Shown: positions 24,735-44,784 of the stretch, piece after piece
Numbering within the stretch: position 1 is the stretch's first letter
Layout of the letters: each line of letters starts with the position of its first letter
Source of the DNA: Stenotrophomonas lactitubi
Lineage (GTDB): Bacteria; Pseudomonadota; Gammaproteobacteria; Xanthomonadales; Xanthomonadaceae
Assembly (NCBI RefSeq): GCF_002803515.1
Contig: NZ_PHQX01000001.1
Span: 806,001-870,000, forward strand
DNA: 64,000 bases
Direction of reading: 5' to 3'
Made by a program: the position numbers and the translations under genes
Notes under the pieces: generated by a model
What the model was told of the DNA's origin: nothing
Databases searched by the model: none
Seen by the model: only the letters and a program-made list of their open reading frames with translations

Positions 24735-24840
24735 TGGCCGGGTGGGTGGGGTAGGCGGGACCGCAGGCGCCATGGATGGCGCCTACGAGTCCCCAGGGAT
24801 GGGTTCACGGCGTGTCCCGCCTGCCTCACCCACCCGGCCA
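24735..24840 (+). repeat. Structured repeat element, copy 1 (B orientation)
   Basis: Outer arms 24735-24761 and 24814-24840 pair over 27 positions, with two G-T wobbles. Inside are hairpin 1 (GGCGCC-ATGGAT-GGCGCC, 24766-24783) and the conserved core variant ending GGGTTCACGGCGTGTCC. AACCTGTC lies just upstream at 24725-24732. It sits in the ~320-base gap between the 221-residue protein and the emrA-like gene; the rest of the gap shows nothing clear. Confidence 0.85.
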
Positions 24841-24929
24841 ATCCCGCCAATCCAACCGCAACGATCAGCCACGAGGGGCTCCGCCGTTCGCTGTCTTCGA
24901 CGAAGCCGCGCAGTCAAGCAGGCCCGCGC

Positions 24930-26093
24930 CTAGTCCATCGGCTTCGTCGCAGTATCCACCCGCACGATCACCGACATGCCCGGCCGCAACCGCGCCGCCA
25001 GCTGCTGCTCCCCGTTGATCGAGATCCGCACCGGCAACCGCTGCACCACCTTGGTGAAATTACCGCTGGCATTGTCCGGTCGCAGCACGCTGAACTCCGA
25101 TCCGGTGGCCGGCGCGATCTGCTCCACCCGTCCGCGCAGCACCTGGCCCTGGAACGCATCCACCGAGAACGATGCCGGCTGCCCGATCGCCATCTGCCAG
25201 GTCTGGCCTTCCTTGTAATTGGCCACCACCCACAATGCATCGGGCACCAGGAACAGCAGCTGCGAACCGGCCGCCACGTACTGGCCCACGCGCACGCTGG
25301 CTTCGCTGATCTGGCCATCGCGCGGCGCATGGATCACCGTGTTGGCCAGGTCGATGCGTGCCAGTTCCAGCTGCGCCTGCGCACTTTCCACCTGCGCCTC
25401 CAGGCTCTTGCGCGAGACCTGGGTGGAGACCAGGGTCTCCTCGGAGATGCGGATCTGCGCCTGCGACTGCTGCACGCTGGCCTGTGCAGAGGCTTGGCTG
25501 GTGCGGAACTTGTCGCGGTCGTTGATCGACACCAGCTGCTGCGCCGCCAGCTCCTCGTAGCGCTTGGCCTCATTGCGGGAGCGCTGCAGCTCAGCCTGTC
25601 CCGCCGACAGCGTGGCCTGCGCCGAAGCGATCTGCGCGCGGTTCTGCGCCTGTGACTGGTCCGAATTGGCCAGCGCCGCGCGCGCGCTGTCCAGCGTCGC
25701 CTGGGCCTGCGCCACCCGCTGCGCATAGATACGGTCGTCGATGCGCAGCAGCGGCTCGCCCTGCTTCACGTGCTGGAAATCCTTCACCAGCACATCGGTC
25801 ACGTAACCGTTGACCTGCGGCGCCATCACCGTGATCTGCCCGCGCACATAGGCGTTGTCGGTCACCATCACGCTGCTGGTGAAGGGCCACAGATGCCAGG
25901 CGCGCAGGATCAGCGCGATGCCCAGCAACGCCACCACGACCATCACCACCACGCTGCGCGAACTCGGTTTCAGGTACTTCGGTGCGGCGGCCGGCGCGGC
26001 TGGCGTCGCCGCAGGCGCCGCATCGGTGGGCGGTGGCGGGGTGACGTTCTCGGCGGCGTCGGTGTCGTCTGGACGGGGCGGGACGGGAGGCAT
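24930..26093 (-). CDS. HlyD/EmrA-type membrane fusion protein
   Basis: Periplasmic adaptor of a tripartite efflux pump, 387 residues. After a Pro/Ala-rich cytoplasmic start comes one membrane segment (VVVMVVVALLGIALIL), then the biotinyl-lipoyl half TDNAYVRGQITVMAPQVNGY, a long Gln/Ala-rich coiled coil with alternating AQA and SAQ repeats (about residues 120-240), the second lipoyl half HAPRDGQISEASVRVGQYV, and the beta-barrel end. TDNAYV is typical of EmrA-like proteins that work with MFS pumps. It is last in the tetR-MFS-MFP operon, ten bases after the MFS gene. No outer-membrane channel gene is nearby. Confidence 0.9.
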   Translation of the reverse strand: MPPVPPRPDDTDAAENVTPPPPTDAAPAATPAAPAAAPKYLKPSSRSVVVMVVVALLGIALILRAWHLWPFTSSVMVTDNAYVRGQITVMAPQVNGYVTDVLVKDFQHVKQGEPLLRIDDRIYAQRVAQAQATLDSARAALANSDQSQAQNRAQIASAQATLSAGQAELQRSRNEAKRYEELAAQQLVSINDRDKFRTSQASAQASVQQSQAQIRISEETLVSTQVSRKSLEAQVESAQAQLELARIDLANTVIHAPRDGQISEASVRVGQYVAAGSQLLFLVPDALWVVANYKEGQTWQMAIGQPASFSVDAFQGQVLRGRVEQIAPATGSEFSVLRPDNASGNFTKVVQRLPVRISINGEQQLAARLRPGMSVIVRVDTATKPMD

Positions 26094-26103
26094 GGCGATG
26101 GAC

Positions 26104-27777
26104 TCAGCGCGGTGCCGCGGTCGCAGCCGCAGCGGGGGAGGAAGGATGGCGCTTGCGCCATTGTTTGCGCACGGCGGTACGCAGCGACAGCAGCAGCAAC
26201 CAGCACAGGAAACCGATCGCCAGCCAGCCGCTCAGGGTGAACACATCATTGAAGCCACGCACGTTGGCTTCGCGTCGGGTGGTCTGCGCCAGCTGCGCGC
26301 TGCCCTGTGCGCTGCGCAGCACCGGGTCGGTGATCTGCGCTGCGTACAGCTGCTGCTGGATGCGCAGGCGCTGCGCCACCACCGGGTCGGCGGGATCGAG
26401 CTGGCTGGTCAAGGCGCTGGAATACAGCTGTTCGCGATGCAGCTGGAACGTTCCCAGCACGGCCGAGCCGGCCAGTCCGCCCAGCGTCTGGGTGATCGAC
26501 AAGGTCACCAGGAAGGTGATCATGTGGTCCACACCCTGTTTCAGCGCGGCGGAAATGCCGAGCATGATCAGCGGGCCCATGAACATGCCGGCGCCCACCG
26601 AGGCCAGGAACTGGCTGACGTAGAAGTCGTGTGGTCGATCCATGCTGGTGCGGTGCTGGTCGAAGAACGCGGCTGCACCCAGCAGCAGGATCGCCATCAG
26701 CAGCTGCGCGATCAGCCGCTTCGGGCCGAAGGTGATCGCCGCGCCGGCGATGCCGGTCACCACGCCGGCCAGGATCACCACGAACAACGGCCGCATCTGG
26801 TCCGGCCCCATGCCCAGGGTGCGCATCAGGTTGACCACGCCGTAGGACTGTTCGGTGGTCAGGAAGCGGATCAGGAAGGCGCCAACGATGAAGTGCATCA
26901 CCGGCAGGGTCGACAGCCAGCGGATCTGCAGCAGCGGATTGCGCCGGTAGTGTTCGATGATCAGCGCGGTGGTGGTCAGCGCGATGGAGGCGATCAGCGC
27001 CCAGCCCAGCCACGGCGTGTTCAACCACCAGCGCGTGTAGCCCTGCGCGAGCACGATCACCAGCAGGGCGACGGCAGGCGCGAGCAGGGCGAAGGTGAGG
27101 AAGTCCAGAGGTTCGAAGGCCTTGACCTGGATGCCGGGCGGCAGCTTCAGCACCACCACGGCAGCAAACGCGCACAGCGCCAGCCCTGCTTCGAACGAAT
27201 ACAGCTGGTGCCATTGACCGGTATCGACCAGGCCCGGCGAGACGATCCAGGCAATCGGCACCGCCAGCTGCGACAGGCCAACGCCGACCACCAGCAGGTT
27301 GCCGGTGAAACGCCGCGGCAGTGCCTGCAGCATGTACAGCGTACCCAGCGTCGAACATGCCGCGCCGGCGAAACCGCTGGCGGCGCGGGTCAGCATGGTG
27401 GTCTCGAAGCTGCCGACGAACAGGTGCAGCACCGCCAGCGCCGCATACAGCCCCAGGCCGATCTCGGCGAACAGGCGGATGCCGTACTGCTGGCGGAACT
27501 TGAAGGCCAGCAGGTTGGCGGTCACGTTCACCATGGCGTAGGCGGCGACCAGCCAGCTGCCCTGGGTGGGAGTGAGTGCCAGTTGTCCCTGCAGGAAGGG
27601 CAGGTTGGCCGTTACCAGCGCGTTGCCAAGGCCGCCGGTGATGGCCACCAGCAGCGACACCAGCGCATAGGCTGCACGCCGATAGGGTGGGTGCCACGGC
27701 ATCGACGCCGAACCGGGCATGGTCGGCTTCTCGTGCTCCTCCCAATCCGGCACCGGCTTGAGGTACGGCTGCACCAT
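26104..27777 (-). CDS. MFS multidrug exporter, DHA2 (EmrB-like) family
   Basis: Proton-driven drug exporter with 14 predicted membrane segments, 557 residues. It shows GGLGNALVTANLPFLQ in TM1, QGSWLVAAYAMVNV in TM2, RAASGFAGAACSTLGTLY in TM5 and a long cytoplasmic start and tail. Its ATG overlaps the tetR stop (TGATG), which signals translational coupling. The partner membrane fusion protein follows. Together they should form an EmrAB-like tripartite pump; substrates cannot be read from sequence. The gene order, pump before adaptor, is the reverse of E. coli emrAB. Confidence 0.9.
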   Translation of the reverse strand: MVQPYLKPVPDWEEHEKPTMPGSASMPWHPPYRRAAYALVSLLVAITGGLGNALVTANLPFLQGQLALTPTQGSWLVAAYAMVNVTANLLAFKFRQQYGIRLFAEIGLGLYAALAVLHLFVGSFETTMLTRAASGFAGAACSTLGTLYMLQALPRRFTGNLLVVGVGLSQLAVPIAWIVSPGLVDTGQWHQLYSFEAGLALCAFAAVVVLKLPPGIQVKAFEPLDFLTFALLAPAVALLVIVLAQGYTRWWLNTPWLGWALIASIALTTTALIIEHYRRNPLLQIRWLSTLPVMHFIVGAFLIRFLTTEQSYGVVNLMRTLGMGPDQMRPLFVVILAGVVTGIAGAAITFGPKRLIAQLLMAILLLGAAAFFDQHRTSMDRPHDFYVSQFLASVGAGMFMGPLIMLGISAALKQGVDHMITFLVTLSITQTLGGLAGSAVLGTFQLHREQLYSSALTSQLDPADPVVAQRLRIQQQLYAAQITDPVLRSAQGSAQLAQTTRREANVRGFNDVFTLSGWLAIGFLCWLLLLSLRTAVRKQWRKRHPSSPAAAATAAPR

Positions 27778-28343
27778 CAGCGTTCCCCGCTGGCTGCTCC
27801 CTGGAGTCCCCCGCGCAGCAGCTGCAGGGCACGCCCGGCCAGCTGGGCACGCTCATCGCGGGTCTTGCCGCGCAGGGCCGCACCCAGCATGCCCGAGATC
27901 AGTGAAATATCCGTCTTCTCCAGATCGGGCCGGCACAGGCCAGCGGCTTTGGCACGGGCGATAGGCGCTTCCAGCAGGTCGCGCACGGTCTCGCGTGCGG
28001 TGCGCATGGCCGGAACATCCGAATCGACCGCGCGCCAATAATCGGCCAGCGCAGGCGAATCGACGATGCGCTGGGCCATGCCTTCGAACACCTCGAACAG
28101 GGCGTCGTCGCGGTCGCCAAGCTGCTCGACCTGGCGGCGGATGCGGTCGACCGTGCGCTGCAGCAGCGCCTGGATCAGCGCGGTACGGTCGGGGAAATTG
28201 CGGTACAGGGTGGCGCGACCGACTTCGGCACGCTCCACCACCAGGTCCAGCGGCGCGGTAACGCCATGTTGGCCGAACACATGGTCGGCGGCATCGAGGA
28301 TGAGGGCTCGGCGGGCAGCAGCATCGGCACGTTGGGTGGTCAT
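27777..28343 (-). CDS. TetR family repressor of the efflux operon
   Basis: A 188-residue regulator. The N-terminal HTH reads ILDAADHVFGQHGVTAPLDLVVERAEVGRATLYRNFPDR, a canonical TetR fold; the C-terminal ligand domain is diverged. The start is ATG at 28343 (MTTQRADAAARR). A palindrome centred 20 bases upstream of this start is a good autorepression site. It is the first gene of the operon and overlaps the pump gene, so the repressor would control its own and the pump's expression, with drug binding as likely inducer. Confidence 0.9.
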   Translation of the reverse strand: MTTQRADAAARRALILDAADHVFGQHGVTAPLDLVVERAEVGRATLYRNFPDRTALIQALLQRTVDRIRRQVEQLGDRDDALFEVFEGMAQRIVDSPALADYWRAVDSDVPAMRTARETVRDLLEAPIARAKAAGLCRPDLEKTDISLISGMLGAALRGKTRDERAQLAGRALQLLRGGLQGAASGER

Positions 28344-28354
28344 GGCTTCATTTT

Positions 28355-28370
28355 CGGACAAACATGTCCG
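28355..28370 (-). promoter_or_regulatory. Candidate TetR operator
   Basis: CGGACA-AACA-TGTCCG is a perfect 6-4-6 inverted repeat 12 bases upstream of the tetR start. A second TGTCCG half-site lies near 28398. The position fits autoregulation. Confidence 0.65.
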
Positions 28371-28459
28371 GATGGCGAGAGACGAATGGCGACGGGATTG
28401 TCCGCTTGTTGTCGTACGCACATCTTTGTGACGCCTGTGTGAGGGGCGGCTGGGAGCGT

Positions 28460-28489
28460 AAAAAAAACGGGGGGCCACCTGGCCCCCCG
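28460..28489 (-). terminator. Intrinsic terminator on the minus strand
   Basis: On the minus strand, GGGGGGCC-AGGT-GGCCCCCC is followed by a run of eight T. It ends the transcript of the TonB receptor at 28617-30815, beyond three REPs. Confidence 0.88.
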
Positions 28490-28522
28490 GGAGAGAACGA
28501 CAGCACGTAGCCATCAAAGTCG

Positions 28523-28610
28523 GTAGCTCCACGCCATGCGTGGATGCACTTACCCTTAGATCCACGCCATGCGTGGATCCATTTCCAGTAGATCCACGCC
28601 ATGCGTGGAT
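28523..28610. repeat. Three tandem GTAGATCCACGC REPs
   Basis: Three direct copies of the ATCCACGC-CAT-GCGTGGAT palindrome at 28523-28545, 28557-28578 and 28588-28610. All have the same orientation, between the TonB receptor stop and its terminator. The first has GTAGCTCC and the second TTAGATCC at the head. Confidence 0.9.
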
Positions 28611-28616
28611 GCCCCA

Positions 28617-30815
28617 TCAGAAGAACGCGCGGATCCCGAAAGCGACACCACGGCCCGGCAGCGGCGAGTAATCCTTCAACAGCGAGGTGTGCGGACGCAC
28701 TTCGCGGTTGGTCAGGTTGCTGCCGTCCAGGAACAGCTCGTAGCTGTTGCTGTCGCTGCGGTCCCAGCGGTAGGCCAGGTGCGCATCGACCAGGGTGTAG
28801 CCGTTGCTCGGCGCCTCGTTCTGCGCCACGTCCTTCTGCCGGCTGTAACGCACCGCGCCCACCGAGGCACGCCAGCCATCCTTCGCCCAGCGCAGGTCGG
28901 CGCCGACACGGGCCGGTGCGATGCGCGGCAGGTAACCGGTGTTGGCCAGTTCCACGCTGTAGTTGTGGTTGTGGTCACCGTGCGGCACGGCGATGTCGAG
29001 GGTGCGGCTGCCGTTGCCGTCCAGCTTGGCCTGCACGTAGTCGCCGAATACGCGCAGGTCCCAATCGCCGGCACCGCCTTCGAACAGGTGCACCAGCGCT
29101 TCGGCCTCGGCGCCCTTGAACACCGCGTCCTGCTGGGTCCAGGCACGCACCGGCAGGCTCTCGGTCACGCCGGTGTCAGCCAGGTAGATGAAGTCCTTGA
29201 ACTTGGTCTGATAGATCGCGGCGGAGAAATCGAGGCGTTCGCTGTGGGTGTGGATGCCCAGTTCGATGCGCTGGCCGCGCTCGGTCTTCAGGTTGGCATC
29301 ACCGATTTCCAGCGAGCGGGTGGCGATGTGTGCGCCAGCGGCGTACAGCTCTTCATTGGTCGGCGCGCGCTCGGAACTGTCCACGCCGATGCGCAGGTCG
29401 ACGGCATCGTTGAGCTTCCAGATGCCGGCGGCCGACAGGTTGGTCGCATCGAACTTGCGGCGCTGGTAGTCGCCGGTCGGGTCCAGCTTGACCTGGTCGT
29501 GGCGGCCGCCCAGTTCCAGCTTGAACGGACCGAACTGCTTTTCCTGCAGCACGAACACGCCGATGTTCTTGGTGCCGGTATCCGGCACGAAGGCTTCTTC
29601 GCCCTTCGCGCCGAAATCGCTGTTGCCGACCTGCAGGCCGAAGGCGCCGTCCCAGCCGCCGATCTGCTGCTGCACCGCTTCCAGGCGGCCTTCGATGCCG
29701 CGGTTGGTGAAGCGGGTGGACGGCGTGCCGGCTTCCAGTTCCACGTGCTCGTAGTCGGTGTAGGCCACACGCGCGTTGATGTTCTTCAGGAACGACACCG
29801 GGTTGTAGATGCCGGCCTTGGTCTCGAAGCGGTTCTGCACCATGTCGATGCGCACGTCATGCTCTTCACCTTCCTCCTCCTCGCCATGGTCGTGGTCGTG
29901 ACCATGGTCGTGGTCATCGCCGTCGGCATGCACATGGGCGCCGTTGGGAATGCCGTAGTTGGTCCGGTAGGTGCTGGCAGAGACGCCGAAGTAGCCGCCT
30001 TCACCCAGCCAGGTGGCGCCGACACCGCCGGCGCGGGTGCGGATGGAGCTGTTGTCCAGGCGGCCGCGACGCGGCTCTTCGCCTTCCTCGCCTGCGTGGT
30101 CGTGGTCATCGTGGTGGTCTTCCAGGCCGTCGATCACCGCGTAGCCGGGAATGCGGAAGTCGTCGCCATTGCGCACCAGGCCATCCACGTGCAGCACGAC
30201 ATTGCCGCTCACGCCGTCAAGGCGGAACATGCCGCTGCGCTCGTCGTTGACCGAGTTGCCGCGCAGTTCGGCGCGGCCGCTGAGCGGACGGTCCGGCAGT
30301 TCGCGCGCGATGCGGCCATCGACCACGTTCACCGCGCCGCCGATCGCGCCGCTGCCGAACAGCAGGGTCGCGGGGCCTTTCAGCACTTCGATCTGGTCGG
30401 CCAGGAACGGCTCGATGCTGGTGGCGTGGTCGGCGCTGACGGTGGAGGCGTCCATGTTGCCCATGCCGTTGGACAGCACGGCCACGCGCGGGCCTTCCTG
30501 GCCGCGGATGATCGGGCGGCCGACACCGGGGCCGAAGAAGGTGCTCTGCACGCCGGGCAGCTTGGCCACGGTGTCGCCGAGGGTGCCGGCCTTCTGCTCG
30601 TCCAGGCGCTCACCGGCCAGCACTTCAACCGGGCGTGCCAGCGATTCGGCATCACCCTGCAGCGGCGACGCGGTGACCTGTACCGAGGACAGTTCGGTCA
30701 GGTGGCGGTCACGATGCGAATCATCGTCGGAGGCCGCAAAGGCGACGGACGGCAGCAGCGCAGCGAGCGCCAGGGCCAGGGAATGCGGCTTGAAACGAGG
30801 GTGGTGGGAGGGCAT
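28617..30815 (-). CDS. znuD: TonB-dependent receptor, His-rich, probably for zinc (ZnuD-like)
   Basis: Outer-membrane receptor of 732 residues. The signal peptide is followed by a TonB box region (LSSVQVTASPL), plug (DTVAKLPGVQS, IIRGQEGPRVAVLSNG, IEVLKGPATLLFGSGAIGG), and barrel ending GVAFGIRAFF. Two external loops are packed with His and Asp/Glu (DHHDDHDHAGEEGEE and HADGDDHDHGHDHDHGEEEE), the hallmark of zinc receptors such as ZnuD. The start at 30815 follows AAAGGA; a longer reading begins inside a palindrome that is probably its operator. It is divergent from a MerC-like gene, and zur lies about 7 kb away. Zinc as substrate is inferred from the loops. Confidence 0.88.
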   Translation of the reverse strand: MPSHHPRFKPHSLALALAALLPSVAFAASDDDSHRDRHLTELSSVQVTASPLQGDAESLARPVEVLAGERLDEQKAGTLGDTVAKLPGVQSTFFGPGVGRPIIRGQEGPRVAVLSNGMGNMDASTVSADHATSIEPFLADQIEVLKGPATLLFGSGAIGGAVNVVDGRIARELPDRPLSGRAELRGNSVNDERSGMFRLDGVSGNVVLHVDGLVRNGDDFRIPGYAVIDGLEDHHDDHDHAGEEGEEPRRGRLDNSSIRTRAGGVGATWLGEGGYFGVSASTYRTNYGIPNGAHVHADGDDHDHGHDHDHGEEEEGEEHDVRIDMVQNRFETKAGIYNPVSFLKNINARVAYTDYEHVELEAGTPSTRFTNRGIEGRLEAVQQQIGGWDGAFGLQVGNSDFGAKGEEAFVPDTGTKNIGVFVLQEKQFGPFKLELGGRHDQVKLDPTGDYQRRKFDATNLSAAGIWKLNDAVDLRIGVDSSERAPTNEELYAAGAHIATRSLEIGDANLKTERGQRIELGIHTHSERLDFSAAIYQTKFKDFIYLADTGVTESLPVRAWTQQDAVFKGAEAEALVHLFEGGAGDWDLRVFGDYVQAKLDGNGSRTLDIAVPHGDHNHNYSVELANTGYLPRIAPARVGADLRWAKDGWRASVGAVRYSRQKDVAQNEAPSNGYTLVDAHLAYRWDRSDSNSYELFLDGSNLTNREVRPHTSLLKDYSPLPGRGVAFGIRAFF

Positions 30816-30825
30816 GGGCGGTCCT

Positions 30826-30842
30826 TTGTTACAATGTATCAA
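30826..30842. promoter_or_regulatory. 17-bp palindrome before the zinc receptor
   Basis: TTGTTACAATGTATCAA is palindromic at 14 of 16 paired positions around a central A, 11 bases upstream of the receptor start. Candidate Zur (or other metalloregulator) operator. Confidence 0.5.
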
Positions 30843-30904
30843 TCGGGTGGCGCACGAATCCCGTCGGCGGGACAGGGGCAGGGAAACCGTGCGGGTCGGG
30901 GATC

Positions 30905-30929
30905 GATGTTATATTATTCCATAACGATT
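30905..30929. promoter_or_regulatory. AT-rich inverted repeat, candidate Zur site
   Basis: GATGTTATATTATTCCATAA then CGAT contains GTTAT and ATAAC in inverted orientation. The left part resembles the gammaproteobacterial Zur half ATGTTATA. It lies between the divergent zinc receptor and MerC-like genes, 20 bases before the latter. Confidence 0.5.
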
Positions 30930-30948
30930 CGCCGCCCTGCTGGAAGTC

Positions 30949-31362
30949 ATGCCTTTGCCCTCACGCCTGCGCCACCTGCTCGATCGCTTCGGCGCCACCG
31001 GTTCGATGCTGTGCGCGGTGCATTGCGCGGTGATTCCGCTGCTGCTGGCAGCGGCGCCCTCGCTGGGCCTGTCTTTCTGGCTCAGTGATGGCGTGGAAAA
31101 AGCGCTGGTGGTGTTCGTGACCCTGCTGGGCTTGTTCAGCCTGGTCTGGGGCTATCGGCGCCACGGCGCGCTGCGTGCGCTGGCGTTCCTGATTCCCGGC
31201 CTGGTCGCTTTGTGGGCCGGTGTGCTGTACGACCCGCTGCACCACAACGCGGTGCCGCACGCAGTGGTGATGACGCTGGGCGGGCTGCTGGTCGGCATCG
31301 CGCATCTGGTCAATCTGCGCCTGAATCACGGGCACGTGCACGACGCAAGCTGCGCGCACTAG
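30949..31362 (+). CDS. MerC domain membrane protein
   Basis: A 137-residue inner-membrane protein with four predicted membrane segments. The first holds GSMLCAVHCAVIPLLL, the Cys/His metal site of MerC-type proteins; the tail is His-rich (NHGHVHDASCAH). MerC proteins carry mercury, but chromosomal relatives beside zinc receptors are more likely to handle zinc. It is divergent from the His-rich TonB receptor over 133 bases with two palindromes, which suggests shared metal control. The metal is inferred. Confidence 0.82.
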   Translation: MPLPSRLRHLLDRFGATGSMLCAVHCAVIPLLLAAAPSLGLSFWLSDGVEKALVVFVTLLGLFSLVWGYRRHGALRALAFLIPGLVALWAGVLYDPLHHNAVPHAVVMTLGGLLVGIAHLVNLRLNHGHVHDASCAH

Positions 31363-31472
31363 GCCCGGCGTGCTAGGATTTCCGATCGTGCGCGGGGGCG
31401 TCCAGCAAGACGGTCCCGCCAAACCCGTGTCAGAACGGGGTAACCAGATTTCATACTTGAGGAGTTGATGAC

Positions 31473-31655
31473 ATGGGTAAGGGTGACCGCAAGACCGCCA
31501 AGGGCAAGCGCTACAACGCCAGCTACGGCAACGCCCGTTCGCACACCGCGAGCAAGGTCGCTGTAGGCACCGCCGCCCCGGTTGCCAAGAAGACCGTGGC
31601 CAAGGCTCCGGCGAAGAAGGCTGTGGCCAAGAAGGCAGTGGCCAAGGCCGGCTGA
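31473..31655 (+). CDS. 30S ribosomal protein THX-like
   Basis: A 60-residue, very basic protein. The first half, MGKGDRKTAKGKRYNASYGN, is the THX family sequence; the second half is an Ala/Lys repeat tail (VAKK, APAKK, AVAKKAVAKAG). THX binds at the top of the 30S head in Thermus. The start follows TTGAGGAGTTGATGAC, a strong ribosome site, and a classic terminator follows, so it is a well-expressed single-gene unit. Confidence 0.9.
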   Translation: MGKGDRKTAKGKRYNASYGNARSHTASKVAVGTAAPVAKKTVAKAPAKKAVAKKAVAKAG

Positions 31656-31682
31656 TCCGCCGACCGACCGGTCCAAAGAAAA

Positions 31683-31711
31683 CGCGGCGCTCGGCGCCGC
31701 GTTTTTTTTTG
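31683..31711 (+). terminator. Intrinsic terminator after the THX gene
   Basis: CGCGGCGC-TC-GGCGCCGCG followed by nine T. Confidence 0.92.
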
Positions 31712-31720
31712 CTCATTTTT

Positions 31721-31778
31721 GTAGAGCCGAGCCCAGGCTCGGCTGGCGCAATGCAGCCGAGCATGGGCTCGGCTCTAC
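31721..31778. repeat. Inverted pair of GTAGAGCCGAGC REPs
   Basis: GTAGAGCCGAGC...GCTCGGCT and its mirror ending GGCTCTAC, same type and layout as at 6543 and 47391. It lies between converging genes. Confidence 0.88.
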
Positions 31779-31785
31779 AACGTAT

Positions 31786-33187: not shown

Positions 33188-33208
33188 CGTCACCGGGAAC
33201 CTGTCAGG

Positions 33209-33312
33209 GGTGGGATGGATCGGGTATGCAGGACCGTTGGCGCCATGGATGGCGCCATCGAGCCCCCACGGACGGGTTTACGGCGTGTCCTGCATACCCG
33301 ATCCATCCCACC
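33209..33312 (+). repeat. Structured repeat element, copy 2 (B orientation)
   Basis: Outer arms 33209-33234 and 33287-33312 are perfect 26-bp complements. Hairpin 1 is at 33238-33257 (TGGCGCC-ATGGAT-GGCGCCA); the core has CCCCC-ACGGAC-GGGTTTA and CGGCGTGTCC. AACCTGTC lies just upstream (33198-33205). Downstream come GCTGTTGC/GTTGCTGTTGC stretches and the REP at 33376. It fills most of the 358-base gap between the NPP gene and ogt. Confidence 0.88.
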
Positions 33313-35438: not shown

Positions 35439-35623
35439 GCCGGGCTGCGCCCGGCACCCGCGGGGGGGCAACGGCGACGTCAACAGCAACAGCAACGTCA
35501 AAAACCTGCATTCCTTGGGATGGCGGGGTGGGTCCGGTTGCGGGGGACGCCGTAAACCCGTCCATGGGGGCTTGGCCGCGGCATCCATGCCGCGGACACC
35601 CCCGTAACCGGACCCACCCCGCC
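35439..35623 (-). repeat. Structured repeat element, copy 3 (A orientation) with flanking REP
   Basis: A GCCGGGC-TGC-GCCCGGC palindrome (35439-35455) and a CAACAGCAACAGCAAC-like tract lead to the element at 35522-35623. Outer arms 35522-35546 and 35599-35623 pair over 25 positions with one G-T wobble. Hairpin 1 is CCGCGGC-ATCCAT-GCCGCGG (35576-35595). Read on the minus strand the core matches copies 1, 2 and 5. It fills much of the 476-base divergent gap between ada-alkA and the ClpP-like gene; promoters of both must lie around it. Confidence 0.87.
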
Positions 35624-37614: not shown

Positions 37615-37626
37615 CGGAGATCGACG

Positions 37627-38016
37627 ATGGCCACCGAACTGACGATGCTGGCGTGGGCGATGCTGCTGGGTTTCGTCTACATCTTCGCCGCCTCCACCGT
37701 GGTCACCCGCGAGCGCGGGATGAAATGGAACGCCTCTGCACGCGACGACTCGTCCAAGCCGCTGAGCCCGCTGGCAGGCAGGCTGCAGCGGGCGCAAGCC
37801 AACTTCTTCGAGACCTTCCCGTTCTTCGCTGCCGCTGCGATCGCGGTGGTGGTGGCCGGGCGTGGCAGCGATACCACTGCCTTGGTCGCGCAGGTCTACT
37901 TCTGGGCGCGTGTGGTGTACCTGCCGCTGTACGCGGCCGGCATTCCCTATGTGCGCAGCCTGGTCTGGCTGGTATCGATCGTGGCAATCCTGGCACTGGT
38001 CTGCGCGCTGCTGTGA
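37627..38016 (+). CDS. MAPEG family membrane protein
   Basis: A 129-residue inner-membrane protein with four predicted helices. The pattern RAQANFFETFPFFAAAAIA and YFWARVVYLPLYAAGIPYVR matches the MAPEG family (membrane-associated eicosanoid and glutathione metabolism), including the RAxxNxxE motif. Bacterial members are often glutathione transferases of unknown substrate. It follows the DUF4019 gene closely, with GGAGATCGACG before the ATG. Confidence 0.88.
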   Translation: MATELTMLAWAMLLGFVYIFAASTVVTRERGMKWNASARDDSSKPLSPLAGRLQRAQANFFETFPFFAAAAIAVVVAGRGSDTTALVAQVYFWARVVYLPLYAAGIPYVRSLVWLVSIVAILALVCALL

Positions 38017-38096
38017 AGTGCAGCTGATCCAGATCAAGGCCGGTCAGGCACGCGGCGCTATGCTGGCCGCGACTGGATCAACGGCAGGAGGCGCGC

Positions 38097-39275
38097 ATGC
38101 GCAGGATGGACGTGGTGGTGGTCGGCGCCGGACCGGCCGGGTTGTGCTTTGCGCGCGCCCTGGCTGGTACTGGCTTGCAGGTGGGACTGGTCGAAGCGCA
38201 GCCGCGCCAGGCCTTGGCCGATGCCGCCTTCGATGGCCGTGAAATCGCCCTGACCCATGCGTCGCGGCAGAGCCTGGAACAACTGGGCCTGTGGCAACGC
38301 CTGCCCGAGACCGAGATTGCCGAGCTGCGCGACGCGCGGGTGATGAACGGCGGGTCGCCATTCGCGCTGACCTTCGCCAGCAGCCAGATCGATGGCCAGC
38401 CGCTGGGCTGGCTGGTGCCCAACCATCTGATCCGCCGCGCGGCCTGGCAGGCGGTGCAGGGCCAGGACGGGCTGGAGCTGTTCGATGGCCGCAAAGTGCA
38501 GGCGGTGCGCGCCGACAGCCAGGGCCACGTGGTGCGCCTGGATGATGGCAGCGAACTGCACGCGCGCCTGCTGGTGTGCGCCGACAGCCGCTTCTCCGGC
38601 ACCCGCCGCATGCTCGGCATCGGTGCGCAGATGCGTGACTTCGGCAAATCGATGCTGGTCTGCAGGATGCAGGTCGAGCGCGATCATCACCACACGGCGT
38701 GGGAGTGGTTCGGCTATGGCCGCACGATGGCACTGCTGCCGCTCAACGAAGGCCAGGCATCGGCGGTGATCACCCTGCCACCGCGGCAGATCGAAGAACT
38801 GCTGGCGATGGATGAGATCGCGTTCGGGGACGCCATCAGCGGCTTCTTCGAGCACCGCCTGGGACGCATGCAGCCGGTAGCGACGCCGCAGGCCTATCCT
38901 CTGGTCGGGGTGTATGCGCAGCGCTTCGTCGGCGAACGTTCGGCGTTGATCGGTGATGCCGCGGTGGGCATGCACCCGGTCACCGCACATGGTTTCAACC
39001 TGGGCCTGGCCAGTGCGCAGCGGTTGGCGCAGGGCATCGCCGAGCAGCAGCGGCGCGGGGCGGACATCGCCGCCGCCGGCATGCTGGGCAGCTACCAGCG
39101 CGGGCATCGGCTGGCGGCGCGGCCGCTGTATGAGGCGACCAATGCGATTGCCAGCCTGTATACCGATGACCGCCGGCCGGCGCGCCTGTTACGCGCAGCG
39201 GGGTTGCGGGTAGCGCAGGGGGTGGCGCCGTTCCGGCAGCTGATTGCCGCCCACCTGACCCAGCGCGTGGCCTGA
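38097..39275 (+). CDS. FAD-dependent ubiquinone hydroxylase, UbiH/UbiM type
   Basis: A 392-residue flavoprotein monooxygenase. It has the FAD GxGxxG motif VVVGAGPAGLCFARAL, the middle LLVCADSRFSGTR motif (normally DG), and the second FAD motif SALIGDAAVGMHPVTAHGFN, typical of the UbiH/UbiF/COQ6 family that hydroxylates the ubiquinone ring. The MHPVTAHGFNLGLASA end and single-gene context make UbiM plausible, but which ring position it acts on cannot be decided here. Start ATG at 38097 behind GGCAGGAGG. Confidence 0.82.
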   Translation: MRRMDVVVVGAGPAGLCFARALAGTGLQVGLVEAQPRQALADAAFDGREIALTHASRQSLEQLGLWQRLPETEIAELRDARVMNGGSPFALTFASSQIDGQPLGWLVPNHLIRRAAWQAVQGQDGLELFDGRKVQAVRADSQGHVVRLDDGSELHARLLVCADSRFSGTRRMLGIGAQMRDFGKSMLVCRMQVERDHHHTAWEWFGYGRTMALLPLNEGQASAVITLPPRQIEELLAMDEIAFGDAISGFFEHRLGRMQPVATPQAYPLVGVYAQRFVGERSALIGDAAVGMHPVTAHGFNLGLASAQRLAQGIAEQQRRGADIAAAGMLGSYQRGHRLAARPLYEATNAIASLYTDDRRPARLLRAAGLRVAQGVAPFRQLIAAHLTQRVA

Positions 39276-39290
39276 CGGCCGCGCGGTGAC

Positions 39291-39512
39291 TCAAGCGGCG
39301 GCCAGCACCCGGATCTGGCTGTCGTTGAACTCGACCACCTGGCCTGCGCGGATCTTGCAGGCCTTGCGCAGCTCGACCTCGCCATCGACCAGCACCAGGC
39401 CTTCGCTGATGACCATCTTGGCTTCGCCACCGCTGGTGACCAGGTCGGCCAGCTTGAGCAACTGCTTGAGTTCGACGTAGTCGCCGTCGAGGTCGAATTC
39501 GAGGATCTGCAT
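39291..39512 (-). CDS. S4-domain RNA-binding protein (YbcJ-like)
   Basis: A 73-residue protein that is essentially one S4 domain: YVELKQLLKLADLVTSGGEAKMVISEGLVLVDGEVE, then RKACKIRAGQVVEF. YbcJ in E. coli has this size and architecture and is thought to bind RNA. It converges on the UbiH-like gene with a 15-base gap. Confidence 0.9.
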   Translation of the reverse strand: MQILEFDLDGDYVELKQLLKLADLVTSGGEAKMVISEGLVLVDGEVELRKACKIRAGQVVEFNDSQIRVLAAA

Positions 39513-39781
39513 GGAACGGGGTTTCCTGGGGCAGGCGCTGCAGGACAGGGCCCGCAGCGGTAAAATGGGCGCCTATTGTGCGCCACGGCGGGCCGTAACG
39601 GCATGCCGGTGGTTTCCTGTACACCTTGTTCAGGAACAGTGCGGTATCATTCCGCTCTGAGCGAGTGAAACCTCAGCTTCAACCGAGCAGCGCCAGGGCA
39701 CGCGATAAGAAGGGCGCCCAAAGCGCGGAATCCCCCTTTTTTTCGCCTGCCATGCTCGTGGCAGTGCCTTCGGAGTTCCCC

Positions 39782-41710
39782 ATGTCCCAAGAAACCCAAG
39801 CGCAGCTGCAGTTCGCGCAGCTCGGCCTGTCCGATTCTGTCATGCAGGCTGTCACTGCCATCGGCTACGAAACGCCGTCGCCGATCCAGGCCGCCACCAT
39901 CCCGGCGATGCTGGAAGGCCGCGACGTGCTGGGCCAGGCCCAGACCGGTACCGGCAAGACCGCAGCCTTCGCGCTGCCGGTGCTGTCCAACATCGACCTG
40001 CAGCAGATCAAGCCGCAGGCCCTGGTGCTGGCCCCGACCCGCGAGCTGGCCATCCAGGTTGCCGAGGCGTTCCAGTCCTATTCCTCGAAGATTCCCGGCT
40101 TCCGCGTGCTGCCGGTGTACGGCGGCCAGCCTTACGGCCAGCAGCTGACGGCCCTGCGCCGCGGCGTGCACATCGTGGTCGGTACCCCCGGCCGCGTCAT
40201 CGACCATCTGAACCGCAGCACGCTGGACCTGTCCGAGCTGAAGACGCTGGTGTTGGACGAAGCCGATGAAATGCTGCGCATGGGCTTCATCGACGACGTC
40301 GAAGCGGTGCTGAAGAAGCTGCCGGAGAAGCGCCAGGTGGCGCTGTTCTCGGCCACCATGCCGCCGGCCATCCGTCGTATCGCGCAGACCTACCTGAAGG
40401 ACCCGGTCGAAGTCACCATCGCGACCAAGACCACCACCTCGGCCAACATCCGCCAGCGCTACTGGTGGGTGAGCGGCATGCACAAGCTGGACGCGCTGAC
40501 CCGCATCCTGGAAGTCGAGCCGTTCGACGCGATGATCGTCTTCGCGCGCACCAAGGCCGGCACCGAGGAACTGGCCAGCAAGCTGCAGGCCCGTGGCCTG
40601 GCCGCTGCCGCCATCAACGGTGACATGCAGCAGGCCCAGCGTGAACGCACCATCGCCATGCTGAAGGAAGGCAAGCTGGACATCCTGGTCGCCACCGACG
40701 TGGCCGCCCGTGGCCTGGACGTGGAACGCATCAGCCACGTGCTGAACTACGACATCCCGTACGACACCGAAAGCTACGTGCACCGTATCGGCCGTACCGG
40801 CCGTGCCGGCCGCAGCGGTGAAGCGATCCTGTTCGCTACCCCGCGCGAGAAGGGCATGCTGCGCCAGATCGAGCGTGCGACCCGTCAGCCGATCGAAGAA
40901 ATGCAGCTGCCGAGCGTGGAAGCGGTCAACGACAACCGCATCAACAAGTTCACCTCGCGCATCACCGAAACGCTGGGCCAGGGCGGCCTGGACTTCTACC
41001 GCCAGCTGCTGGAGCGTTTCGAATCCGAGCAGAACGTGCCGGCCATCGAAGTGGCCGCCGCACTGGCGAAGATGATGCAGGGTGATACCCCGTTCCTGCT
41101 GCAGCCGCCGGTGCGCGCCCCGCGCGAAGAACGTGCCCCGCGTGAGCGTTTCGAGCGCACTGAGCGCCCGGAACGTGGCGACCGCAACGAGCGCGGCCCG
41201 CGCTTCGAGCGTGGTCCGCGTCGTGACGATGCCGAGGGTGGCTTCGAGCAGCGTCCGCGCCGTGACGTGCCGCCGCGCGGCGCACCGGAGCAGGGCATGG
41301 AGACCTACCGCATCTCGGTCGGCCACCAGCACGGCGTGAAGCCGGCCAACATCGTCGGTGCCATCGCCAATGAAGCCGGCCTGGAAAGCCGCTTCATCGG
41401 TCGTATCGACATCCACGACGACTTCTCGCTGCTGGATCTGCCGGCACAGATGCCGTCGGACGTGCTGACCCACCTGCAGAAGGTGTGGGTGTCCGGCCAG
41501 CAGCTGCAGATGCGCCCGTTGGCGGCCGGTGAAGAAGTCAATCCGGCGCCGCGTCCGTTCAAGCCGCGCTTCGACAAGCGTGGTCCGGGCGGTCCGGGTG
41601 GCCCGGGTGCTCCGCGTCGCAGTGGTCCGGGTGGTCCCGGCGGCGACCGCGACAGCCGTCCGCCGCGTCGTGATGGCTTCAACAAGCCGCGCGGCCCGCG
41701 CAGCTTCTAA
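39782..41710 (+). CDS. deaD: ATP-dependent DEAD-box RNA helicase DeaD/CsdA
   Basis: RNA helicase that helps ribosome assembly and RNA turnover, especially in the cold. The 642-residue protein has the Q motif, AQTGTGKTAAF (Walker A), PTRELAIQ, the VLDEADEML box, SAT, ARGLDVERIS and HRIGRTGRAGR, then a DbpA-like RNA-binding domain (RISVGHQHGVKPANIVGAIA) and a Gly/Pro/Arg-rich tail (GGPGGPGAPRRSGPGGPGG) expected to be disordered. Start at MSQETQAQLQF behind GGAG; more than 150 bases of untranslated leader lie upstream, as in cold-shock transcripts. A strong terminator follows. Confidence 0.95.
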   Translation: MSQETQAQLQFAQLGLSDSVMQAVTAIGYETPSPIQAATIPAMLEGRDVLGQAQTGTGKTAAFALPVLSNIDLQQIKPQALVLAPTRELAIQVAEAFQSYSSKIPGFRVLPVYGGQPYGQQLTALRRGVHIVVGTPGRVIDHLNRSTLDLSELKTLVLDEADEMLRMGFIDDVEAVLKKLPEKRQVALFSATMPPAIRRIAQTYLKDPVEVTIATKTTTSANIRQRYWWVSGMHKLDALTRILEVEPFDAMIVFARTKAGTEELASKLQARGLAAAAINGDMQQAQRERTIAMLKEGKLDILVATDVAARGLDVERISHVLNYDIPYDTESYVHRIGRTGRAGRSGEAILFATPREKGMLRQIERATRQPIEEMQLPSVEAVNDNRINKFTSRITETLGQGGLDFYRQLLERFESEQNVPAIEVAAALAKMMQGDTPFLLQPPVRAPREERAPRERFERTERPERGDRNERGPRFERGPRRDDAEGGFEQRPRRDVPPRGAPEQGMETYRISVGHQHGVKPANIVGAIANEAGLESRFIGRIDIHDDFSLLDLPAQMPSDVLTHLQKVWVSGQQLQMRPLAAGEEVNPAPRPFKPRFDKRGPGGPGGPGAPRRSGPGGPGGDRDSRPPRRDGFNKPRGPRSF

Positions 41711-41728
41711 GCCGCACTGAAGTAGATC

Positions 41729-41763
41729 AACAACGCCAGCCTCCGGGCTGGCGTTGTTGTTTG
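41729..41763 (+). terminator. Intrinsic terminator after deaD
   Basis: AACAACGCCAGCC-TCCG-GGCTGGCGTTGTT followed by GTTTGT. Confidence 0.85.
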
Positions 41764-41898
41764 TATGGGGGCAGGCCGGCTCGGCCGCCGCTGCCGATCA
41801 CCGGCCGGGTCCGGTTTCGCATGGCCCACACATCCCCGGTTCTAGGCTGGCCCGGTTCCGTAGGAGATTGTCACCGCAGCACATTCGGGGGATCCAGG

Positions 41899-44322
41899 AT
41901 GGGTAGAAGTGGCATGGACCAACAGCGCCGACGGGTACCGATGACCCGCGGGCTGGGGCTGCGATTTGCGCTGTTGACGGGCATGGCGATCGGACTGGTC
42001 GCGCTGTCGGCCGTGATCCAGGAGCTGCAGGCGGCATCGACCGCGTGGATCGCAGGGCAGGGCTACTGGTCGCGGGGGCAGCAGGACGCCACCGCAGCGC
42101 TCAGCCGTTACCTGGCTCGTGGGCACCTGCTGGATCTGCAGGATGCCCAACGGGCATTGCAGGTTCCGCTGGGTGACCTGCAGGCTCGCAAGGCGCTGGA
42201 GCAATCCGAACCGGACGAGGCGACAGCCCGGGCCGGTTTCCTGCGTGGGGGCAACGCCCGCGCCGACATTCCGCGGCTGATCTTCTCGTTCCGCCACGCG
42301 CGCAATGTCGGTGCCTTCCGCGAGGCCACCTGGTTGTGGCGGCAGACCGACGCGGACCTGCTGGCCCTGCAGGCATTGTCGGAGGAGCTGCAACGCCGCC
42401 ATGGCGCGGGACCATTGGACGAGGCGACCGTGGATGAGTACCTGCACCGGCTGCGGGGCATCGACCACCAGCTGCGCGCACAGGCGCAGGCGTTCTCGCA
42501 GGCGCTGCTGCGCATGGCCCGCGCGGTGCGCATCGCAACCCTGGCCGTCGGCGGCCTGTCGGTCCTGTTGATCAGCCTGATGGCAGTGGCCCTGGCCCGC
42601 CGGGTCGGCAAGGACCTGACCGAGCACGAGAGCCGCTTCCGGGCGGCCTTCTACCAGGCCAACGTCGGCATGCTCAAGCTGGATGCCAGCGGCCGGGTGG
42701 TGGAGGCCAACCAGGCGATGGCCGACATCCTCGACCATCGCCGCGACGTGCTGCTGCAGATGTCGCTGGCTGATCTGCTGATGGAGGGCGAGCTGGTCAT
42801 CGATGGGGGTGGCCGCATCGACTGGGATCGCCAGCTGCGACCGGGCGAACTGCGCTTCCGGCGTCGTGATGGCAGCCTGGTATGGGGACGCTGGAGTGGT
42901 ACCGGCGTGCGCACCGCCAGCGGTGGCCTGTCGGTGTTCGCCATCGTTGAGGATGTCAGCCAGAACCATGCCCTGGCACGCGAGATCGAGCACCATGCCA
43001 GCCACGATCCACTGACCGGCCTGATCAATCGCCGCGAGATCGAGCGCCTGCTGGAGAAGTCGCTGCTGCAGGTCCGCTCCGACGGTGGAACCCACGCACT
43101 GGGCTACATCAACCTGGATCACTTCAAGCTGGTCAACGACAGCTTCGGCCACGCGGCCGGCGACCAGATGCTGCGCAGCTTCGCCGAGTACCTGGTCGGC
43201 GCGGTGCGTGATGGCGACTGGGTGGGCCGCCTGGGCGCGGATGAGTTCGCGGTGTTCCTCGCCCGCGCCAACCAGGATGAAGCCAAGCGCGTATTGCAGC
43301 GGTTGATCCGCAACCTGGGCCAGGCCACGTTCCCGATCAGCGAAGGCAGTCCGCAGCTGAGCTGCAGCGTGGGCGTGGTCGAAGTGACGGCCGAGGCACC
43401 GGACGCGAACTGGTTGATGAGCGCCGCCGACAGTGCCTGCTATGCAGCCAAGCAGGCCGGCCGCAACCGCGTGCATTGCTTCAACGAAAACCGGCTGGCC
43501 CTGGAAGAACGACGGCTGGAAGCCGAACGCCTGCAGCGGGTCAGCCGTGCCATGGCCGAGAACCGCATGCTGTTGTATGCGCAGCGCATCGCCAAGGTAG
43601 GTGATCCGTCCTACCTGCACTACGAAGTGCTGGTGCGCATGCGTGACAGCGACGGCGTGCTGCACCTGCCGGGCCAGTTCATGCCGGCGGTGGAGCGCTA
43701 CGGCATGGCGGTGGTGCTGGACCGGCACGTGCTCGGCCTGCTGTTCCGCCACCTGCAGGTGTGTCCGGCGCACGTACGCCAGCTCGGCCTGTGCAACGTC
43801 AATGTGTCGGCCCAGTCGATCGCCGAGCCGGGATTCCTGGCGTTCGTCTGCGACCTGCTGGAGCGCAACCGCGCACTGGCGTCCAAGCTCTGCTTCGAGA
43901 TCACCGAAACCGCGGCGATCGGCAACCTGAGCCAGGCACGAGCCTTCATCGACGCGTTCAAGGCGCGCGGATGCCGGGTGGCGCTGGATGATTTCGGCTC
44001 GGGCCTGTCCTCGTTCGGCTATCTGCGGCAGCTGCCGGCGGACATGCTGAAGATCGATGGTGCCTTCGTGCGTGACATGGATACCGATCCGGTCAGCCGT
44101 GCCAGCGTGCGTGCGATCAGCGAGCTGGGCCGCGAACTGCAGATGGAGGTGGTGGCCGAGTGGGTGGAGACCATTGAAGTGGCCGAGGCGCTGGCCGGGA
44201 TGGGGGTGCAGGGCCTGCAGGGCTATGCCATTGAACGGCCGCAGCCACTGGAGCGGCTGACCCTGGCTGACCTGCGGCCAATGCGTTTGGCCGGCACGCA
44301 GGGGCCATCGGCTGCCGGCTGA
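41899..44322 (+). CDS. Membrane PAS-GGDEF-EAL protein with degenerate GGDEF
   Basis: An 807-residue c-di-GMP protein. TM1 (RFALLTGMAIGLVALSAV), a ~180-residue helical periplasmic sensor, and TM2 (LAVGGLSVLLISLMAVALA) lead to a PAS domain (RFRAAFYQANVGMLKLDASG), a GGDEF domain and an EAL domain. The GGDEF signature is GADEF (residues 446-450), so cyclase activity is doubtful, though GTP could still bind. The EAL signature is EVL (from residue 576), with CFEITETAAI, ALDDFGSGLSSFGYL and QGYAIERPQ keeping the metal residues, so phosphodiesterase activity is likely. Start at 41899 behind GGATCCAGG; ATG 41914 is an alternative. Confidence 0.88.
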   Translation: MGRSGMDQQRRRVPMTRGLGLRFALLTGMAIGLVALSAVIQELQAASTAWIAGQGYWSRGQQDATAALSRYLARGHLLDLQDAQRALQVPLGDLQARKALEQSEPDEATARAGFLRGGNARADIPRLIFSFRHARNVGAFREATWLWRQTDADLLALQALSEELQRRHGAGPLDEATVDEYLHRLRGIDHQLRAQAQAFSQALLRMARAVRIATLAVGGLSVLLISLMAVALARRVGKDLTEHESRFRAAFYQANVGMLKLDASGRVVEANQAMADILDHRRDVLLQMSLADLLMEGELVIDGGGRIDWDRQLRPGELRFRRRDGSLVWGRWSGTGVRTASGGLSVFAIVEDVSQNHALAREIEHHASHDPLTGLINRREIERLLEKSLLQVRSDGGTHALGYINLDHFKLVNDSFGHAAGDQMLRSFAEYLVGAVRDGDWVGRLGADEFAVFLARANQDEAKRVLQRLIRNLGQATFPISEGSPQLSCSVGVVEVTAEAPDANWLMSAADSACYAAKQAGRNRVHCFNENRLALEERRLEAERLQRVSRAMAENRMLLYAQRIAKVGDPSYLHYEVLVRMRDSDGVLHLPGQFMPAVERYGMAVVLDRHVLGLLFRHLQVCPAHVRQLGLCNVNVSAQSIAEPGFLAFVCDLLERNRALASKLCFEITETAAIGNLSQARAFIDAFKARGCRVALDDFGSGLSSFGYLRQLPADMLKIDGAFVRDMDTDPVSRASVRAISELGRELQMEVVAEWVETIEVAEALAGMGVQGLQGYAIERPQPLERLTLADLRPMRLAGTQGPSAAG

Positions 44323-44332
44323 AGGTGCTGCG

Positions 44333-44380
44333 GCCGGGCTGCGCCCGGAACCCGCGGTAGTGCCGGCCGCTGGCCGGCAA
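44333..44380. repeat. Two REPs opening the composite of copy 4
   Basis: GCCGGGC-TGC-GCCCGG (44333-44348) and GTAGTGCCGGCC-GCT-GGCCGGCA (44357-44379), followed by CAACAGCAACAGCAACAG. Confidence 0.8.
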
Positions 44381-44417
44381 CCTCAACAGCAACAGCAACA
44401 GCGGGGTTCTGGGGGAT

Positions 44418-44519
44418 GGCGGGGTGGGTCCGGTTGCGGGGGACGCCGTAAACCCATCCATGGGGGCTTGGCCGCGGCATCCATGCCGCGGACACCCCCG
44501 CAACCGGACCCACCCCGCC
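44418..44519 (-). repeat. Structured repeat element, copy 4 (A orientation)
   Basis: Perfect 25-bp outer arms at 44418-44442 and 44495-44519, with hairpin 1 CCGCGGC-ATCCAT-GCCGCGG inside and the conserved core CGCCGTAAACCCATCCATGG. It is almost identical to copy 3, including flanking sequence. On the minus strand AACCTGTC precedes it. Confidence 0.9.
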
Positions 44520-44567
44520 TTCGACAGGTTCACGCGGCTGTTGGTGGGTGTCGACCTTGGTCGACGC

Positions 44568-44657
44568 GTAGATCCACGCCATGCGTGGATGACATCCAAT
44601 CCATTCAATGATTTCGAAATCGGTATGAACATCCATCCACGCACGGCGTGGATCTAC
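44568..44657. repeat. Two facing GTAGATCCACGC REPs between copies 4 and 5
   Basis: GTAGATCCACGC-CAT-GCGTGGAT (44568-44590) and the mirror ATCCACGC-ACG-GCGTGGATCTAC (44635-44657). They form the centre of a mirror-like arrangement of two composites. Confidence 0.88.
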
Positions 44658-44678
44658 CAGATGGCGGGACACTGTCAG

Positions 44679-44784
44679 GGGTGGGGCGGTATGGGCGGGC
44701 AGGACCGTTGGCGCCATGGATGGCGCCATCGAGCCCCCATGGATGGGTTTACGGCGTGTCCTGCCTGCCCATACCGCCCCGCCC
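44679..44784 (+). repeat. Structured repeat element, copy 5 (B orientation)
   Basis: Outer arms 44679-44705 and 44758-44784 pair over 27 positions with two G-T wobbles. Hairpin 1 (TGGCGCC-ATGGAT-GGCGCCA) is at 44709-44728; the core reads CCCCCATGGATGGGTTTACG. ACTGTC lies upstream and a GCTGTTGCTTC stretch downstream, followed by a GTGCCGGGC REP near 44829-44852. The 637-base gap 44323-44959 consists almost wholly of these repeats. Confidence 0.9.

Follow-up and report, generated by a model that had tools for sequence, protein, structure and literature searches.

YPAL, also called RU-2, is an intergenic, hairpin-forming insertion repeat of Yersinia that is described as mobile; its sequence is printed in PMC2759123, and PMC2229807 describes target duplications and considers that the repeat might influence the stability of upstream transcripts. 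TwoAYGGAY (RF01731) is an orphan RNA motif, for which CsrA binding was already proposed by Gardner and Eldai (PMC4333381). Ysr224 (RF02770) is modelled as a Yersinia small RNA (sRNA), and a 2022 survey that counted every copy places it among the most prevalent annotated sRNAs (PMC9029176), as is expected of a repeat. In Stenotrophomonas maltophilia, the GTAG-type repetitive extragenic palindromes (REPs) and the terminal inverted repeats (TIRs) of RAYT/TIRYT genes are dispersed, self-complementary and often paired (PMC3733652). On the protein side, the high-affinity site of RsmE is a hexaloop of the form ANGGAX that sits directly on a stem and whose N and X, both looped out, are free (PMC4005645), and one CsrA dimer can bridge sites that are 10-63 nt apart, best with a distance above 18 nt (PMC7652899). 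Here, we analyse a repeat of ~104 nt that is present in five copies in a 64,000-nt stretch of the Stenotrophomonas lactitubi genome (contig NZ_PHQX01000001.1, positions 806,001 to 870,000, hereafter the window). The repeat represents a well-supported structured superfamily, which is highly amplified in this genome and often paired. Judging from the sequences, we hold it about evenly probable that the copies are dispersed elements that form a three-way junction on the sense strand (defined as the strand that bears the GGA loops), and that their RNA would likely bind RsmA/CsrA via two ANGGAX loops.

A search of the S. lactitubi genome with a 20-nt segment of the core at three or fewer mismatches gave 93 matches (42 on the plus and 51 on the minus strand), and the reversed control gave none. 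One match, L068, lacks the first hairpin and was excluded; around 1593 on its minus strand it is a chimeric copy, with an intact 3' half and other sequence in place of the 5' half. The remaining 92 of the 93 extracted copies have outer arms of 23-29 bp (15 bp in one), nearly free in sequence, around a core of 52 nt (91/92 copies) or 51 nt (one copy). The predicted structure is a T-shaped double hairpin on one strand. Mutual information, calculated without the 51-nt core (91 copies, of which 88 were unique and gapless), brings out the arms, hairpin 1 (H1, core positions 1-26) and hairpin 2 (H2, core positions 31-42), with the pair 3/24 of H1 usually unpaired. For covariation, 44 diverse copies were selected; a first analysis (A1) took 43 of them, leaving out L026 with its short arms, and a second (A2) took 37, leaving out six that were gapped by MAFFT. 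In the 37 copies, two-sided changes occur at 35 of the 42 pairs and 98.1% of the cells hold standard pairs. This larger alignment thus bears out the covariation that the original prediction had read from the five window copies: it exceeds that of 500/500 shuffles, none of which was comparable, and of all six slid registers. The stem GCC/GGC (28-30/48-50) has no covariation support because it is almost invariant. The five window copies fold with z-scores of -6.9 to -9.9, and for each of them 0/200 shuffles were as good. Together, mutual information and covariation against shuffles and registers strongly support a selected fold, as had been predicted. Near-constant parts of the core are A-N-GGA-Y, AGC, TTYACGGCGT and the core length itself. 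A covariance model built from the 37 copies (R1) finds at least 150 full-length copies in the genome.

The conserved loops are where the repeat meets the RsmA/CsrA literature. Loop composition was counted in 120 S. lactitubi copies, which cover 120 of the 122 sense places among the matches listed above 85 bits, and were found with a pattern that itself contains the loop letters and tolerates five mismatches. The H2 loop has A followed, after one free position, by GGA in 120/120 copies, with T, G, A or C at N and T, C, G or A at X. The H1 loop is ATGGAT in 119/120, so that the strict AYGGAY form applies to 119/120 H1 loops and to 56/120 H2 loops, the other H2 loops being other ANGGAX variants. 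In other taxa, the corresponding counts are 73/73 for A and GGA in H2 and 71/73 for GGA in H1. Those copies that were found by pattern are biased in this respect, because the pattern fixes CATGGATG and CANGGAYG; among the 32 found by the model only, the counts are 32/32 and 30/32. The distance between the two GGA motifs is 20 nt in 91 of the 92 extracted copies, a set in which the position of the H1 loop was left free, and 19 nt in one; in the 120-copy set a gap of 20 nt follows by construction, because the pattern allows no indels. Other taxa have gaps of 16-26 nt in 71/73 copies, and in the other two a GGA is missing. By sequence and predicted fold, a copy thus presents the ANGGAX hexaloop of an RsmA/CsrA ligand twice, each on a stem, within the 10-63 nt that a dimer can bridge. 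A member of the CsrA family is found in 44 of 45 genomes with the element, compared with 198 of 231 without it (p 0.024). It is therefore likely that RNA of the repeat, in those places where the sense strand is transcribed, would bind RsmA/CsrA through the two loops.

The arms also indicate which strand is under selection. In a G-C pair, a C-to-T change creates G·T and a G-to-A change creates A·C, and on the other strand the roles are swapped, so that a fold of both strands predicts a ratio of 1:1 under symmetric mutation. Over a fixed 24 pairs in the 120 copies, the G·T and A·C mismatches stand at 83:12 cells and 57:11 distinct events (p 1e-8). The arm lengths used originally came from a score that penalised A·C above G·T and thereby favoured the strand test; counts over fixed pairs avoid this trimming, and give 47:10, 51:11 and 57:11 distinct events for 20, 22 and 24 untrimmed pairs. 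In other taxa the ratio is 64:15 (22 pairs; 73 of 78 non-Stenotrophomonas copies), so the direction agrees in the two sets. GTAG-type REP hairpins at the same loci, taken as a control, have no excess (4:8, few events). The excess of G·T over A·C therefore shows that selection acts on the fold of the strand with the GGA loops, be it in RNA or in single-stranded DNA.

By current thresholds the repeat falls into no named family, but it is plainly related to TwoAYGGAY and YPAL. The original prediction could put no family name to this form. This can no longer be upheld, since the architecture is that of TwoAYGGAY (below threshold) and the core that of YPAL/RU-2. No named family is matched exactly, and Rfam at its thresholds has no match in the window. 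Relaxed Rfam searches return TwoAYGGAY on the sense strand and Ysr224 on the antisense strand; neither reaches its threshold, and both stand amid many chance-like miRNA matches. The 15 TwoAYGGAY matches in the S. lactitubi genome overlap copies of the repeat; the best reaches 40.4 bits against a gathering threshold of 43 bits, so that none is above it, and window copies 2 and 3 score 37.9 and 35.8 bits. Like the repeat, TwoAYGGAY has a long, poorly conserved outer stem and two GGA-loop hairpins on the same strand, is multi-copy, and stands head-to-head at some loci (L334 and L339 by Rfam, L340 by R1), whereas the Rfam model has a longer H2. Two loci, L340 and L341, lie above the RF01731 threshold (49.1 and 44.6 bits) and also match R1 (E 5.6e-13 and 1.7e-11). 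Among ten TwoAYGGAY loci, L334, L335 and L337 match R1 with E values of 4e-6 to 6e-5 and the other five weakly or not at all. Of 276 genomes of the class, 16 have TwoAYGGAY matches, which pass the threshold in 11. Only four of the 16 are among the 45 genomes positive for R1, and we therefore regard the two as sister sets rather than as one list.

Homology to YPAL/RU-2 concerns the core, for which an nhmmer profile gives 42.3 bits (E 1.5e-11), while none of 2000 shuffles exceeded 6.1 bits. RU-2 is 168 nt long, has additional sequence on the outside and a core of 53 nt, whereas the window copies of ~104 nt have other arms and, by eye, none of the outer YPAL sequence, and copies 4 and 5 are paired with REPs between them. 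Two Sodalis loci, L185 and L198, have flanking YPAL sequence as well (by eye). The consensus core of Ysr224 corresponds to the repeat core read on the opposite strand, and Sodalis L185 scores 76 bits against a threshold of 70. Ysr224 differs in being modelled on the antisense strand, and window copies 4 and 5 reach only 32.1 and 28.3 of the 70 bits. The S. maltophilia GTAG REPs and RAYT TIRs resemble the repeat in dispersal, self-complementarity and pairing, but the repeat has no GTAG foot, and no copy of it was found within 1.5 kb of any of five RAYT-like genes. In the open-access literature, we found no paper that names the repeat in Stenotrophomonas, a letter search for two long core strings gave 0 occurrences, and a search for CsrA/RsmA together with repeats in Stenotrophomonas gave nothing related.

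In a survey of 276 sampled Gammaproteobacteria genomes, the repeat was matched in 45, representing 40 of 215 genera (E 0.001). The survey used stricter filters and scored no more than 14 candidates per genome, and its copy numbers per genome are therefore lower bounds. A genome of the same genus (G147) had no match. Carriers identified by pattern scan include Stenotrophomonas, Idiomarina, Serratia, Erwinia, Sodalis, Saccharospirillum, Methylomonas, Pseudohongiella and Steroidobacter, some of these records being metagenome-assembled genomes. Searches of plasmids and phages gave no match. In viral contigs, a pattern scan found none, a result limited by the pattern, whose 10-nt gap suits only the core variant of 53 nt, and a second search found one. 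This match (L273, 7400-7900, IMG/VR) lies beside open reading frames (ORFs) that by eye are Dam-like and pseudouridine-synthase-like, and may therefore derive from the host, next to the border of a provirus.

Several observations weigh against a role of the repeat as an RsmA/CsrA ligand in transcripts. Chief among them is the absence of an orientation bias to genes, which argues against a simple transcript role. None of the 92 S. lactitubi copies lies within a gene predicted by our own gene caller; 51 are in tandem gaps (24 sense, 27 antisense), 26 in convergent and 15 in divergent gaps. The other-taxa set of 84 copies (3 within predicted genes, 10 at locus edges) leaves 71 placed copies, with 41 in tandem (19 sense, 22 antisense), 19 in convergent and 11 in divergent gaps. 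Sense and antisense copies of other taxa pair alike, and their G·T to A·C ratios are 18:2 (sense), 14:3 (antisense), 23:5 (convergent gaps) and 4:3 (divergent gaps), so that no dependence of the constraint on transcription entering from neighbouring genes is visible. The p values of the strand test are too small, because copies share ancestry. The AGC...TTYACGGCGT part of the core is near-invariant, although RsmA would not need it. One genome with the element (G175) is missing from the list of CsrA carriers, possibly owing to a draft gap. The RsmX/RsmY/RsmZ and CsrB/C sponges bind RsmA/CsrA through ANGGA hairpin loops, and the repeat would act alike if transcribed; unlike them, it is dispersed, offers two sites per copy and shows no promoter of its own, since by eye, without a promoter scan, no conserved promoter was seen. 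Finally, in copies 2 and 5 the fold of minimum energy places H2 in a register other than that indicated by covariation; in view of this shift, the covariation model is preferred.

Some of these facts are what would be expected of a selfish mobile DNA element, whose fold in single-stranded DNA is recognised by a recombinase or transposase acting in trans; fold and GGA loops would then be of use for mobility alone, and the resemblance to an RsmA ligand would be coincidental. We regard this as a possible explanation, though a doubtful one. It would account for the random orientation to genes, for the like strand constraint in sense and antisense copies, and for the near-invariance of core residues outside the loops, and it fits the patchy distribution, with no copy in the same-genus genome mentioned above, the printed target duplications of the YPAL kin (PMC2229807), and the presence or absence of copies at an orthologous site.

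This orthologous site is that of copies 4 and 5. Among 30 loci of the same genus, the matched flanks lie 13-84 nt apart in 23, a distance that includes some unaligned gene end; they lie 542-766 nt apart in four, including that of S. lactitubi, and three loci have no two-flank match. The composite that holds the two copies is absent in many relatives and, by eye, leaves no clear target duplication, whereas YPAL is characterised by duplications of 3-26 bp and by insertion at dyad symmetry. Its outermost hairpins, which adjoin CAACAG/CTGTTG tracts, differ between relatives in a compensated manner, GCCGGGC/GCCCGGC in some and GCAGGGC/GCCCTGC in others (by eye). At the copy 1 site, relatives have deletion derivatives. 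The closest of them (G294) was considered as an empty site and rejected, since ~9 nt of the 5' arm persist, as in a deletion. In another relative (L299 in G282), the element is missing at this site and a plain hairpin of 16 bp is present instead, which is compatible with insertion into an existing dyad. At the copy 2 site, orthologous copies bear different arm types (by eye). Movement fits these site differences best, with neither a transposase nor a clear target duplication found.

Pairing is a further trait of the repeat. In S. lactitubi, 88 of the 120 copies form 44 pairs, all head-to-head and mostly with spacers of 147-217 nt, and 32 are single. The head-to-head arrangement also dominates in other genera (by eye), with tail-to-tail copies in L113 and L172 and same-direction copies in L207 as exceptions. 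Partners with like arms (at least 85% identity) occur in 1/44 pairs against 5.2 expected, a weak effect (P 0.02) without a lower mean identity. The pairs were considered as the ends of a transposon around a common transposase, and this was rejected, as the ORFs within five wide pairs, where present, are unrelated to each other: by eye, one IS110-like, the others GspE-like, GltX-like and aldolase-like, and in one pair no convincing ORF. In Stenotrophomonas rhizophila (L176, 6001-7705), an ORF that by eye resembles an IS110-family transposase (6554-7468) lies between the two copies of a head-to-head pair. An identity as TIR of a RAYT/TIRYT gene was likewise rejected, since 0/5 RAYT-like (Y1_Tnp) loci hold the core at six or fewer mismatches within 1.5 kb on each side. 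Of these loci (L079-L083), one is flanked by GGGGTCAGA...TCTGACCCC repeats, one by GGTGGGTGCCGACC... repeats and three by other GTAG hairpins.

The lack of a consistently linked transposase, in the wide pairs and around the RAYT-like genes, counts against a purely selfish element. So does the control of the strand test, since REP hairpins, which are held to be single-strand DNA substrates, are without a G·T excess (4:8, few events). Moreover, the loops match the RsmA contact map including the positions that are free there. A bidirectional terminator, or a hairpin that stabilises mRNA ends without the need for a protein partner, is an unlikely alternative, though in keeping with the intergenic location, the very stable folds, the possible influence of YPAL on upstream transcripts (PMC2229807), and the finding in other taxa that 29 of the 41 copies in tandem gaps begin 15-80 nt behind a stop codon. 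Against it, convergent gaps are only moderately more frequent than divergent ones (26 versus 15, and 19 versus 11 elsewhere), the window copies have no T-run after their arms (by eye), and a plain hairpin does not explain the constant core length and loops. Extruded DNA had been named beside RNA in the original prediction. A cruciform of double-stranded DNA to which an architectural protein binds would suit the long and nearly perfect arms, but is very improbable and was rejected, since both strands would fold and mismatches should be equal in number rather than 57:11, which leaves RNA and single-stranded DNA.

Within the window, all five predicted copies are present at their predicted places, copies 1, 2 and 5 on the plus and copies 3 and 4 on the minus strand (a difference that the original prediction did not mention), and all five have H1 around ATGGAT, as described. 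The predicted complementary arms of 25-27 bp are likewise confirmed, with 27, 26, 25, 25 and 27 bp and 2, 0, 1, 0 and 2 non-Watson-Crick pairs in copies 1 to 5. Copy 1 (24735..24840, plus strand) has arms at 24736-24761 and 24814-24839 (27 bp in all) around a 52-nt core at 24762-24813, with H1 at 24762-24787 and H2 at 24789-24811. Its 5' foot carries the tag AACCTGTC on the plus strand (24725..24732). An upstream tag of this sequence or a variant had been predicted for the copies in general, and [CT]TGTC is indeed found near the 5' foot of 99/120 copies. Copy 2 (33209..33312, plus strand) has arms at 33209-33234 and 33287-33312 and a core at 33235-33286 (H1 33235-33260, H2 33262-33284). Copy 3 (35522..35623) is on the minus strand, so that its 5' arm has the high coordinates (35599-35623) and its 3' arm is at 35522-35546, with the core at 35547-35598 (H1 35573-35598, H2 35549-35571). 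The core sequence CCCCCATGGATGGGTTTACG, which had been taken to be fixed, is exact in copies 4 and 5 and differs in the other three, which have TCCCCAGGGATGGGTTCACG (copy 1), CCCCCACGGACGGGTTTACG (copy 2) and CCCCCATGGACGGGTTTACG (copy 3).

Copies 4 and 5 form a head-to-head pair. Copy 4, on the left (44418..44519, minus strand), has arms at 44495-44519 and 44418-44442 and a core at 44443-44494 (H1 44469-44494, H2 44445-44467), and copy 5, on the right (44679..44784, plus strand), has arms at 44680-44705 and 44758-44783 (27 bp in all) and a core at 44706-44757 (H1 44706-44731, H2 44733-44755). The 5' TGTC tags of both face inward into a spacer of 159 nt (44521..44679), which by eye contains GTAG-type REP hairpins that we take to be SMAG-like. 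The composite around the two copies spans 44324..44864, with outer inverted hairpins at ~44324-44355 and 44830-44858, CAACAG and CTGTTG tracts, and REPs.

Returning to the repeat as a candidate RsmA/CsrA ligand, the following course of events can be envisaged. The repeat, for which no transposase was found, would spread as a member of the YPAL class of small mobile elements, and its long arms would insulate the core from neighbouring sequence and from other copies. In a transcript, one RsmA dimer is predicted to bridge both loops. Sense copies in mRNA tails or leaders may then, taken together, tune RNA stability as RsmA sites and decoys scattered over the genome. Since pairs are head-to-head, a transcript through a whole pair from either side would carry exactly one sense copy.

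More tentatively, a mobile repeat may have seeded hundreds of two-site docking modules for RsmA/CsrA in the genomes of Gammaproteobacteria, which would form both a dispersed regulatory network and a decoy pool and, owing to the head-to-head pairing, would work in either orientation, with YPAL, TwoAYGGAY and Ysr224 belonging to one superfamily. According to this interpretation, the arms change freely, and the geometry of docking is preserved with almost single-nucleotide precision. If true, an insertion repeat known from Yersinia, an RNA motif classed as orphan and an 'sRNA' that is annotated widely, now separate database entries, would be one superfamily, and the Csr/Rsm system would gain hundreds of unlisted candidate sites per genome. 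The repeat would then also be an example of a small mobile element that wires genes into a global post-transcriptional regulator.

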